Source: Candidatus Nomurabacteria bacterium (lineage in GTDB: Bacteria > Patescibacteriota > Minisyncoccia > Phycocordibacterales > SBAW01). Taken from it: 46,457 nucleotides of DNA. Location of the stretch: positions 11,617 to 58,073 of the forward strand of contig CALQYT010000004.1 in NCBI GenBank assembly GCA_943348815.1. The letters are read 5' to 3'. Within the stretch, counting starts at the first letter, position 1; each line of letters opens with the position of its first letter. Positions 9,268 to 12,798 of the stretch are shown here, piece after piece. Below the pieces are notes generated by a model that was not told where the DNA came from, searched no databases, and worked only from the letters and a program-made list of their open reading frames with translations. A program made the position numbers and the translations under genes.

Positions 9268-9274
9268 CTTTGTG

Positions 9275-9283
9275 TGCTAGGAT
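9275..9283 (+). promoter_or_regulatory. Extended -10 (TGC-TAGGAT), near-leaderless start at 9291
   Basis: The hexamer at 9278-9283 predicts +1 at 9290, one base before the folD ATG. Confidence 0.65.
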
Positions 9284-9290
9284 GTGCAAA

Positions 9291-10037
9291 ATGCTAGTCG
9301 ACGGCAAAAAAGTAGCCGAGGAGGTGCTAAAGGGGTTAGAAAGGGAGCGTAAGCACTTTGGCGCGCTCAAGCTCGGGCTTGTGATGGAGGGTGGCGACGC
9401 GGCAACCGAGTCGTTTGTCAAAATTAAATCGCGGATTGCGGAGCGTCTTAAAATTACAACCGCGCGCTACTCGCCGCAGGAAATGTCGAAGGCAATAAAA
9501 GAGTGCGACGGGATAATCGTGCAGCTGCCGATCGCACACGATGCCGAGTTGTTGGCCAAACTTCCTCCCGGGAAAGATATCGATGGACTTTCTAAAAAAC
9601 CAGTCGTGCGCCCGCCGGTCGCCGAAGCGATCTGCGAGATTTTTGACCGATGTAACATAGCGGCGCGCGGTAAGCATGCGGTGGTGGTCGGCGCGGGGCG
9701 TTTGGTGGGTGCACCGGCGGCCGAACTTTTGCGTGACTTGGGTGCCAAAGTTGAGGTAGTAACCGAGCACGACTCGCTCGAGCCGCTACACTTTGCCGAC
9801 ATTGTGGTGTTGGGTGCGGGCAAGCCCGGGCTCATTGAACCGGACATGTTGCACCGCGGGGTGGTGTTGATTGACGCGGGCACCAGCGAGCAGGGCGGCA
9901 AAGTCAAAGGCGATGCGCGGCCCTCCTGCGCCAATGTAGCCTCGGTCTTTACCCCCGTCCCGGGTGGGGTGGGCCCTATTGCAGTGGCGATGATTTTCAA
10001 AAATTTGTTCGTACTTGCAAGACGAAACAAGAAGTGA
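9291..10037 (+). CDS. folD: Methylene-THF dehydrogenase/cyclohydrolase, short form
   Basis: 248 residues, shorter than the usual 280-290. Recognisable family elements are ESFVKIKSR (corresponding to the catalytic Y-x3-K loop), IIVQLPIA, PPGKDIDG, GAGRLVGAP of the NADP Rossmann domain, VLIDAGTS and TPVPGGVGP near the C-terminus. The catalytic Lys is kept, but the conserved Tyr of the loop is Phe here. FolD interconverts 5,10-methylene-, methenyl- and 10-formyl-THF in the cytosol. Upstream in-frame TTG (9270) and ATG (9282) codons overlap the -10 element, so 9291 is the likely start. The Tyr-to-Phe change may weaken cyclohydrolase activity (inference). Confidence 0.85.
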   Translation: MLVDGKKVAEEVLKGLERERKHFGALKLGLVMEGGDAATESFVKIKSRIAERLKITTARYSPQEMSKAIKECDGIIVQLPIAHDAELLAKLPPGKDIDGLSKKPVVRPPVAEAICEIFDRCNIAARGKHAVVVGAGRLVGAPAAELLRDLGAKVEVVTEHDSLEPLHFADIVVLGAGKPGLIEPDMLHRGVVLIDAGTSEQGGKVKGDARPSCANVASVFTPVPGGVGPIAVAMIFKNLFVLARRNKK

Positions 10038-10049
10038 TTCTCTAAGGGC

Positions 10050-10736
10050 ATGGCGGCCTTCCTCAAAGACGGCACGATAGCCGACTTTCAGGCCTTTAAC
10101 CATGTCGTGTACGGTCGTATCGACGACCGCTATTACGCCACGTGGGATCTCCTCAACCAACAGCAGCGCTTTACGATGCGGGCGCTCAAGGGTATCCGCA
10201 AACGCGATACCGAGAAACTCAAACTCAATTTGCTAGTCTCAATGTCGTTTTTAATGGCGATTGCAAACCGCTTTCATATCAATGTTGAGGAAGAAATGTG
10301 GCGAAGATTCCCAACCCTTTGTTCTTATTGTGGTAAACATATTTGCGCGTGCAAAACTATCAAGCCCCGTAACCGTAAAGAGGTCGTGATTGATAATCGG
10401 TTGCGCCCCAAAAATATGCTGGGCTTTCAAAAAATGTTTGCAAAAATTTATCCGCCCGCAAAACGCACCTTGGCTGATGCGGGCGTGCACTTGGCCGAAG
10501 AAGCGGGAGAGGTGTCAGAGGCCATTCATAATTTTATTGGTCAACACAAAATGCGACAGCTCGAGGATATTAAACTTGAGATTGCCGATTATCTTTCGTG
10601 TCTGTTTGGTGTCGCCAATTCGGCAAAAATAAACGTTGCCGGAGAGCTTGCGCGCATGTTTAAAAACAATTGTCACGTCTGCCACAAAGCCCCGTGCACC
10701 TGCACCTTCGCCTCGGTCACCCGGTATAGGTCTTAA
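10050..10736 (+). CDS. Duplicated MazG-like NTP pyrophosphohydrolase with two zinc knuckles
   Basis: 228 residues made of two related halves. The C-terminal half keeps the MazG/all-alpha NTPase metal-binding signature: EEAGE (E150, E151, E154) and EIAD (E177, D180), followed by FGVANSAKINVAGELARMF and a Cys4 knuckle (C208, C211, C216, C218). The N-terminal half repeats the tail: KLNLLVSM, AIANRFHINVEEEMWRRF and a second Cys4 knuckle (C91, C94, C99, C101), but Glu and Asp of the ExxD motif are replaced by Asn and Val. It is therefore an internal duplication in which one copy lost its catalytic residues. The family hydrolyses (d)NTPs, often as house-cleaning. It starts 12 nt after folD and is convergent with the next gene. 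Confidence 0.75.
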   Translation: MAAFLKDGTIADFQAFNHVVYGRIDDRYYATWDLLNQQQRFTMRALKGIRKRDTEKLKLNLLVSMSFLMAIANRFHINVEEEMWRRFPTLCSYCGKHICACKTIKPRNRKEVVIDNRLRPKNMLGFQKMFAKIYPPAKRTLADAGVHLAEEAGEVSEAIHNFIGQHKMRQLEDIKLEIADYLSCLFGVANSAKINVAGELARMFKNNCHVCHKAPCTCTFASVTRYRS

Positions 10737-10792: not shown

Positions 10793-11350
10793 TTACTTTT
10801 TCTCGAGCAACTGGTCGGCGAGCGCAATAAGCGCTATTTTTATGTTGTGGTCGATTTCCACACCCGAGCTTATCAATTCGTCGAGCAGGGGAATGAATGC
10901 GACGATCACGCCAGTCACCTTCGTCTTCAAGTGGTTGTAGAGACGCTCAAGGACCCAACCGTTGGGTTCTTGCTCAAGCGCCGCCTTGAAGATGCTGACC
11001 TGGTCAGCGACCGGGATCTTCTGATACGCAGCGAAGAGCCGATTCCACAGGTCGCCGTTATCCGTGAGCACCCGTCCGTTCTGCTCCTTAAACTCGAGGT
11101 CGAAGATTTCGAGGAGAACCAAAGCGTCGATCTTGTCGTCACCGATCTCGTTGAGATAGGGCTCAATTACAGCCCCCTCGATTTCCTCATAGGGGTAATT
11201 GCCTTCAAGCGGCTGGCCGTCTTGATGTAGCTTAAGCCAATCAGCAAAACGCTCGGCAAGTGGTGCGCCTGTGTAAACGCGCACAAACGCCGAAAGCGCT
11301 GCTTCATCTGTGTCGGTGATCGCTCGGGACACGTCGTCGTAGCGGGGCAT
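10793..11350 (-). CDS. Hypothetical acidic helical protein with strong SD
   Basis: 185 residues, mostly predicted alpha-helical and acidic, with no membrane segment or recognisable motif. The second half reads like paired helices (IFKAALEQEPNGWVLERLYNHL, ALIALADQLLEKK). I do not recognise a family. It has a very strong SD (AAAGGAGG, complement of 11356-11363) five bases from the ATG, and 4 of 7 Phe codons are TTC. These traits set it apart from the leaderless genes around it. It lies between folD/MazG and secD on the opposite strand, with its own promoter and terminator, so it is an independent unit. Confidence 0.65.
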   Translation of the reverse strand: MPRYDDVSRAITDTDEAALSAFVRVYTGAPLAERFADWLKLHQDGQPLEGNYPYEEIEGAVIEPYLNEIGDDKIDALVLLEIFDLEFKEQNGRVLTDNGDLWNRLFAAYQKIPVADQVSIFKAALEQEPNGWVLERLYNHLKTKVTGVIVAFIPLLDELISSGVEIDHNIKIALIALADQLLEKK

Positions 11351-11435: not shown

Positions 11436-11444
11436 TGTTATGGT
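11436..11444 (+). promoter_or_regulatory. Extended -10 (TGT-TATGGT), near-leaderless start at 11452
   Basis: The hexamer at 11439-11444 predicts +1 at 11451, one base before the secD ATG at 11452. It contains the upstream in-frame ATG (11440), which is therefore unlikely to be used. Confidence 0.65.
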
Positions 11445-11451
11445 TGAGCGC

Positions 11452-12798
11452 ATGTTTGCCATACGGTATTGGGCGGTGGTTGTTTTGATTGCGGCGGCGG
11501 CCATAGGCTTTTTTGTATATGCCACCACTGGTTCGACAGGCTCACCACAAGCGGGGCAGGGTCGCTTTGACTTTAAACTCGGGCTCGACCTCTCGGGCGG
11601 CACACATCTGGTTTACACGGTGGACTCCAGCAAGGTCGCCAAGGCTGACATCGCCGATGCGCTTACGTCGCTGAGGCAAGTGATAGAGCGCCGCGTCAAC
11701 GCCTTTGGGGTTGGCGAGCCGGTAGTGCAGGTTGAGCAGGGCGGCGCCTTGGGTAATGGCCAGTATCGATTGGTGGTTGAGCTCCCGGGCGTTACCGACA
11801 CACAAGAGGCAATCAAGCGCATTGGTGAGACGCCGGTATTGGAATTTAAATTAGTAAAAAAAGGTCAAGAACAAAATCTCACCGACACCACGGGCAATGC
11901 TATTGCAACTTCGTTTGAAGACACCGGATTGACCGGAAAATATTTGACGCGCGCGACGCTCCAATTTGGCAACGGTTCGACCCAGAGTTTACAGCAACCG
12001 GTGGTGCGCGTTGACTTTAATAGTCAGGGTGCGCAACTCTTTGGCGACATCACGTCTAAAAACACGGGCCGACTTTTGGGCATCTTCCTCGACAATCGTT
12101 TGATTTCCGCGCCGGTGATCCAAGAAAAAATTACTGATGGCACGGCTATAATTTCGGGTAATTTTACCGCCGATGTGGCGCGCGAGATGGTGCGCAACCT
12201 TAACCTCGGCGCCTTGCCTCTCCCGATCGCGCTCGAAAACACGCAAACCATCGGCGCAACGCTCGGCCAAGATGCGCTGCACGCGGGAGTCTATGCGGGC
12301 ATTATTGGTTTTATCCTCCTTTCTATATTTATGATCCTCTGGTACCGCTTGCCGGGTGTTGTGGCGGTAGTCTCGCTCTTAATCTACGTCGTGTTGATGC
12401 TCGCACTCTTTAAACTCATCCCCGTGGTGCTTACGGCGGCCGGTATCGCAGGCTTTATCCTTTCGGTCGGTTTGGCGGTAGATGCCAACGTGCTGATTGC
12501 CGAGCGTATAAAAGAGGAGTTAGCAGCGGGCAACAAAGCGCAGCATGCAATCCGCGAGGGTTTTGCCCGCGCGTGGTTGGCGATCCGCGACTCCAACATT
12601 GCGCACATTATCGCGGCAGTAATCTTGTTTTGGTTTTCAACTTCGCTCATCAAAGGTTTTGCCTTGGTGTTTGGACTTGGAGTATTAATTTCGATGCTCT
12701 CGGCTATCACCATATCGCGCACGTTCTTGCTGGCGCTCGGGCTTAACACGGAGTCGAAGGTTGGACGCTTCTTAATGCGCTCAGGACTCAACAAATAG
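11452..12798 (+). CDS. secD: Protein translocase subunit SecD
   Basis: 448 residues. After one N-terminal membrane helix comes LGLDLSGGTHL (about residues 43-53), the SecD/SecF signature, then the P1 periplasmic region with RRVNAFGVGEPVVQ and LPGVTDTQEAIKRIG. The C-terminal part has five further helices with GFILSVGLAVDANVLIAERI, whose Asp lies in the proton path. SecDF uses proton motive force to pull secreted proteins through SecYEG. The P1 domain is short compared with E. coli, as in Gram-positive types. secF follows after an intervening gene encoding an exported protein. The start was chosen from the promoter position. Confidence 0.93.
   Translation: MFAIRYWAVVVLIAAAAIGFFVYATTGSTGSPQAGQGRFDFKLGLDLSGGTHLVYTVDSSKVAKADIADALTSLRQVIERRVNAFGVGEPVVQVEQGGALGNGQYRLVVELPGVTDTQEAIKRIGETPVLEFKLVKKGQEQNLTDTTGNAIATSFEDTGLTGKYLTRATLQFGNGSTQSLQQPVVRVDFNSQGAQLFGDITSKNTGRLLGIFLDNRLISAPVIQEKITDGTAIISGNFTADVAREMVRNLNLGALPLPIALENTQTIGATLGQDALHAGVYAGIIGFILLSIFMILWYRLPGVVAVVSLLIYVVLMLALFKLIPVVLTAAGIAGFILSVGLAVDANVLIAERIKEELAAGNKAQHAIREGFARAWLAIRDSNIAHIIAAVILFWFSTSLIKGFALVFGLGVLISMLSAITISRTFLLALGLNTESKVGRFLMRSGLNK

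Follow-up and report, generated by a model that had tools for sequence, protein, structure and literature searches.

Single-domain MazG proteins carry one domain per chain and assemble as dimers or tetramers, and in E. coli MazG the N-terminal MazG domain is inactive. The dimeric all-alpha dUTPases have, to our knowledge, no Cys4 motif. According to the accessible text of PMC2954211, these dUTPases are thought to be descended from MazG-like ancestors through duplication; asymmetric duplicated MazG-like chains are thus known in principle, and the notion of a duplicate with one dead half is not in itself new. MazG-type domains have also been connected with conflict: DefensePredictor predicted MazG domains in defence, among candidates that the accessible part of the paper states to be unvalidated (PMC13092281), and Atd1 is presented, in the available portion of PMC10419184, as a MazG-like phage anti-defence protein.

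The window, which is the whole stretch of DNA analysed here (46,457 nucleotides), encodes between folD and secD a protein (P0001, the twin protein) that consists of two MazG-type halves. Only the second half has the catalytic acids, and each half ends in a Cys4 knuckle. The gene, its motifs and its surroundings are listed in Table 1.

Table 1. Positions in the window of the twin gene, its parts and its flanking genes
Feature	Position	Strand	Details
folD, left flank of the insertion site	9270..10037	+	Pfam PF02882
Twin MazG-Cys4 protein P0001	10050..10736	+	ORF, 228 aa, ATG start
Half 1, degenerate MazG fold	10065..10361	+	Residues 6-104; profile match to half 2; structural match to 1vmg
Half-1 counterpart of EEAGE: R40 F41 T42 M43 R44	10167..10181	+	Alignment of the two halves
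R50-K51 pair, half 1	10197..10202	+	RK tally among 32 members
Half-1 counterpart of ExxD: N60 L61 L62 V63	10227..10238	+	Alignment of the two halves
Cys4 knuckle 1	10320..10352	+	C91-x2-C94-x4-C99-x-C101; all four Cys in 32/32 members
Half 2, MazG domain	10401..10712	+	Residues 118-221; Pfam PF03819 and structural matches
Catalytic EEAGE (E150, E151, E154)	10497..10511	+	Residues 150-154, half 2 only
Catalytic EIAD (E177, D180)	10578..10589	+	Residues 177-180, half 2 only
Cys4 knuckle 2	10671..10703	+	C208-x2-C211-x4-C216-x-C218
185-aa ORF between twin gene and secD	10793..11350	-	No Pfam match
secD, right flank of the insertion site	11440..12798	+	Pfam SecDF; direct neighbour of folD in same-genus genomes

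Two halves, one set of catalytic acids and two knuckles

The local alignment of half 1 with half 2 has a BLOSUM62 score of 86, compared with 24.6 +/- 4.2 for shuffled sequences; without the Cys parts the score is 58, compared with 23.5 +/- 4.1, and in both cases none of 1,000 shuffles reaches the observed value. Chance likeness of the halves is thereby ruled out. Profiles of the halves, built from 22 relatives, match each other with a probability of 99.6, or 99.1 without the Cys parts, and the duplication put forward in the initial annotation is confirmed by both approaches, also when the cysteines are removed. The tandem pattern that it described, a common ANxxxINVxxExxRxF motif and a Cys4 signature, was located in each half: the motif reads ANRFHINVEEEMWRRF in half 1 (residues 72-87) and ANSAKINVAGELARMF in half 2 (residues 189-204), and CxxC-x4-CxC ends each half, giving four cysteines at fixed spacing, twice. 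The annotation was equally right that EEAGE and EIAD occur only in half 2, where the aligned residues of half 1 are RFTMR and N60/V63, and that the Glu and Asp of the second motif are Asn and Val in half 1. Its 'gain of two knuckles' stands as to the number of knuckles and not as to two gains, as both halves carry the knuckle at the same place; because of this common position, the knuckle was probably acquired once, ahead of the duplication. Pfam recognises half 2 through PF03819 (residues 147-205, 23.2 bits with a curated cut-off of 22) and gives no match for half 1.

The AlphaFold2 model, based on 22 sequences, has a pLDDT of 93.3 and a pTM of 0.90, with pLDDT of approximately 85-92 in the Cys4 blocks. 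Half 1 (model residues 6-89) superposes on SsoMazG (1vmg) with Z 8.1 and an rmsd of 1.2 A over 83 of 83 residues, the top structural match among those listed, while Vibrio iMazG, Bacillus MazG and YpjD superpose on half 2 at Z 6.5, and the remaining MazG matches have Z values of around 5-6.6. Since values of 5-8 are middling for helical proteins, much of the case for the fold rests on sequence evidence. Searches of the PDB with the whole protein gave no Foldseek match below E 0.001 and, by sequence, one irrelevant match (E 0.35). A second structure, predicted for the phage-plasmid version from 4 rows, is poor (pLDDT 55.2) and supports no claim about the fold. Both halves of the window protein are MazG folds in a confident model, in agreement with the 'MazG-like' assignment; the opposite outcome, no resemblance between the halves, did not occur. 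Unrelated single-chain four-helix bundles (talin, FAT and catenin) align across both halves, for example over model residues 26-195, as is expected from a MazG-dimer-like core in one chain. Of the intramolecular dimer first proposed, the MazG fold of each half is borne out by the model, and the pseudo-dimer geometry is what the bundle alignments would imply.

A family spread over Patescibacteria, a filamentous phage and phage-plasmids

We identified 32 distinct two-half relatives in scattered Patescibacteria, in one Vibrio filamentous phage and in P1-type phage-plasmids of E. coli; with this many distinct members a sequencing or assembly oddity is ruled out. In a phylum-wide draw of 379 genomes, 18 gave a match at E 1e-10, and in 17 it is full-length (G113, a short match, was not counted as such). 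A draw of 297 genomes from the same order yielded 15 matches, of which 13 are full-length (the partial match of G502 was not counted) and one more, L084, has both halves. This last protein (from G682) lies outside the 32-member set, as the script required one match spanning more than 150 positions; it has two halves, but knuckle 1 and the catalytic acids are lost. L073 is the same protein as L007 and is outside the 32-member counts and trees. The start codons of some relatives were chosen by the script, and the sequences used for L013, L014 and L016 do not begin with ATG. L006 and L007, close relatives that carry a taxon name, belong to Ryanbacteria/Patescibacteria.

Outside the phylum, tblastn against 50,697 phage records found one match, in a filamentous phage of Vibrio cyclitrophicus (E 4e-15, covering 94% of the query), and further matches at a threshold relaxed to E 10 were all short and weak. 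Among 72,556 plasmids there were 17 tblastn matches, all in E. coli, and the three that were opened are IncY; the twin gene is present in 19 of 5,426 E. coli genomes, always plasmid-borne. No relative emerged from IMG/VR scans with the P0001, P0002, clade-A and clade-B alignments, and the scan with the P0002+P0003 alignment found eight contigs with an identical query range and 29% identity; the one that was translated (L065) encodes the E. coli plasmid protein. Regarding family databases, PF03819 matches 13 of 22 A2 members at E<=1, and Pfam recognises neither L018 nor L022, two clade-B members, at E<=0.01. NCBIfam contains no family at E<=10 for the whole protein or for either half, the MazG equivalog NF007113/TIGR00444 not being matched, and PHROGs returned weak MazG-like matches. 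PADLOC did not match the window protein and gave weak LmuB matches (E 0.001-0.17), mainly to the C-terminal tails of the phage and plasmid versions. These versions (L056 6649-7641 and L057 5920-6912) have an extra C-terminal tail of approximately 100 aa, which is probably helical, and the LmuB likeness is perhaps mere coiled-coil similarity. None of the 14 short MazG proteins examined is a single half with a Cys4 tail, the possible ancestor.

Seven of the eight cysteine columns are invariant in all 32 members, and C208 is kept in 31, being His in L082. Among the acids of half 2, E151, E154 and E177 are found in 26 of 32 members, D180 in 32 and E150 in 17; the EExxE...ExxD core (E151, E154, E177 and D180) is complete in 26, and in none of the 32 does half 1 carry the acidic set. 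The six members without the core form one clade with 100/100 support, within the larger group of the window protein; they keep all eight cysteines and lack the acid set in both halves, and catalysis is therefore not a universal function of the family. The division into one catalytic and one structural half may consequently hold for the window protein, with acids in half 2 only, but not as a family rule. The R50-K51 pair is RK in 21 of the 26 acid-bearing members and in none of the six acid-less ones, and its loss alongside the acids suggests, at the level of sequence, that half 1 may assist the live site. This link falls short of proof because the pair and the acids disappear together just once on the tree, and RK is also absent from five of the 26 acid-bearing members. 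In a tree of the halves, one branch separates all N halves from all C halves (82/71; 84% of bootstrap trees), which points to a probable single duplication before the family spread. Most simply, then, duplication and knuckle both predate this spread.

Two further observations concern the genomes of acid-less members. The PF00692 dUTPase family was found at E 0.001 in none of the six (G109, G171, G251, G273, G416 and G425) vs 250 of the 379 genomes of the phylum draw, an absence that may reflect lineage because three of the six share one family. The twin gene of L022, whose protein is itself without catalytic acids, is adjoined by a gene (L054 6487-7941, minus strand) whose product combines a MazG domain (Pfam E 1.7e-7) with a fused region that matches radical SAM weakly (E 5.7e-4, below the cut-off).

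The twin gene is a mobile accessory gene. At E 1e-3, not one of the 34 other same-genus genomes has the protein. Excluding the genome under study, 27 same-genus genomes have folD and 23 have folD and secD within one fetched locus; the folD-secD junction is without the twin gene in all 23. In 21 of these the gap between the two genes is 3-340 bp, and in the other two (L105 2280-3137 and L127 2303-3148, both minus strand) a gap of around 990 bp contains a 2OG-Fe(II) oxygenase-like gene, so that insertion may have occurred here more than once. The 185-aa ORF has no match in the same-genus folD loci either. Because folD and secD are adjacent elsewhere, the twin gene and this ORF most simply entered the junction in their own lineage, where the twin gene is single-copy (819-kb assembly of 17 contigs). 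In the P1-type plasmids, DNA homology to P1 ends after bplB and restarts just before repL; in the IncY P1-type plasmids the twin gene, hokD and a small gene take the place of pmgF, rlfB and rlfA. It is the folD-secD junction without the gene together with this replacement in P1 that identifies the gene as mobile and accessory. In the Vibrio filamentous phage, the twin gene lies between a pI-like gene and a border transcription regulator. Filamentous-phage loci with a pI/border regulator arrangement are described, in the accessible text of PMC11630473, as variable and defence-enriched, and the position of the twin gene has that same layout, a likeness of layout alone. When 308 predicted neighbours from 22 loci were clustered, no gene was found that generally accompanies the family.

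Proposed function and alternative explanations

On balance, we consider it probable that the twin protein is a single-chain, pseudo-dimeric NTP pyrophosphohydrolase of the MazG superfamily whose zinc sites would be structural or serve for docking. In half 2, E150/E151/E154 and E177/D180 would form the binding site for Mg and a nucleoside triphosphate, and this half would hydrolyse the triphosphate to monophosphate and pyrophosphate. Half 1, as the dead copy, would complete the four-helix core from the opposite side, with its basic residues R44, R50 and K51 presumably facing the phosphates. The Cys4 site at the end of each half probably holds one zinc and could serve as a structural cap or as a partner-docking surface. 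The biological role is the least certain part of this proposal. With well below even confidence, we tentatively assign the gene to conflicts involving mobile elements, in defence or counter-defence, rather than to core metabolism. This role is favoured because of the spread of the family, its insertion sites and the suggestions of MazG defence and counter-defence functions in the accessible parts of PMC13092281 and PMC10419184.

Conflict use and nucleotide sanitation are close rivals. A housekeeping enzyme that serves the thymidylate/one-carbon pathway by clearing dUTP, dCTP or damaged dNTPs, with a distribution due to ordinary gene transfer among reduced genomes, is a doubtful explanation, yet several observations are consistent with it: no other protein of its genome matches the Pfam MazG model, which makes the twin protein the sole MazG-family match there (the same search was positive in 14 of 14 control genomes); 12 bp separate the folD stop from the ATG of the twin gene on the same strand; and, besides folD in the window, metabolic neighbours include SHMT beside L013 and thymidylate kinase beside L017 and L023. 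The same-genus genomes argue in the other direction, as all 34 lack the protein, and their folD-secD pairs do without the gene, so that folD may be a chance neighbour; nor is there a general conserved neighbourhood. Replacement of the trimeric dUTPase/DCD is not supported, PF00692 being above the cut-off in 17 of 29 carrier genomes vs 239 of 379 in the phylum draw.

The knuckles allow other readings. We find it unlikely that the cysteines are redox-active, bind another metal or merely staple the fold, without any binding role. The knuckles are short and lie at the end of each MazG unit, and the change of C208 to His in L082 is a common zinc-ligand swap that would fit a purely structural zinc; however, the spacing within the knuckles hardly varies even between members that have diverged strongly, and Y93 and P88, located nearby and conserved in the six proteins that were aligned first, may mark a surface. 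Alternatively, the protein could be a zinc-dependent nucleic-acid- or protein-binding factor in which the nucleotide site acts as a ligand sensor and catalysis is secondary or lost. The persistence of the Cys4 sites in 31-32 of 32 members when six have lost the acids, and the existence of a well supported (100/100) and diverse acid-less clade, hence maintained without acids, speak for such a factor. A full catalytic core in 26 of 32 members would be hard to explain were activity dispensable, and in L084 knuckle 1 is gone along with the acids; we regard this alternative as distinctly unlikely. Finally, the Cys4 pair might recognise nucleic acid or a partner protein and so gate NTP/dNTP hydrolysis by the live half, one clade, its catalytic half dead, being a pure binder or sensor, which would make the family a new mobile conflict protein of ultra-small Patescibacteria, filamentous phages and P1-type phage-plasmids. 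This is a highly speculative and improbable scenario.

Comparison with described MazG-type proteins

Each half of the twin protein has the predicted fold of SsoMazG (1vmg), iMazG (2q5z/2q73), YpjD (2gta) and Bacillus MazG (5ie9), and half 2 likewise has their EExxE...ExxD. In contrast to these single-domain proteins, the twin protein has two fused halves, one of them dead, with a Cys4 tail on each. Dimeric all-alpha dUTPases (C. jejuni 1w2y) and DR2231 have a four-helix unit in one chain, as is proposed for the twin protein; the DR2231 structural matches fit half 2, and 1w2y is not among the structural matches listed for the twin model. The twin halves differ from the dimeric dUTPases in being still recognisable as a repeat, each with Cys4. 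The E. coli and Mycobacterium MazG proteins have two MazG domains per chain, again as in the twin protein, and 3cra fits model residues 1-109, but the twin protein is shorter, has Cys4 tails, has a different spread and does not match the NCBIfam MazG equivalog.

The predicted viral structures of BFVD include MazG-like proteins comparable in length to the twin protein (170-290 aa; Acj9, phage G Gp58, pT24 and others); they align over most of the chain, a whole-length structural match with a TM of around 0.5 (Foldseek E 0.008 and weaker), although their sequences are unlike that of the twin protein (approximately 6-15% identity). The MazG domains of DefensePredictor (PMC13092281) and Atd1 (PMC10419184) are, like the proposed activity, MazG-type enzymes in phage-host conflict, and no Cys4 twin is described in the accessible parts of these papers. 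In a search of the openly accessible literature, we found no paper holding both 'MazG' and 'zinc knuckle', and the Cys4 pair, the persistence without catalysis and the Patescibacteria/phage spread were likewise not found. In NCBIfam, PADLOC and Pfam the twin family is not represented beyond the generic MazG model.

Overall, the MazG fold and duplicated MazG-like chains are already known. What stands out is a two-half family in which probable metal sites outlive the catalytic site and which is shared by Patescibacteria and phages of two unrelated kinds. As it includes both acid-bearing and acid-less versions, the family offers a natural test of the role of the Cys4 sites. It is also a lead to a nucleotide-based conflict system, testable in E. 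coli through the P1-type gene.
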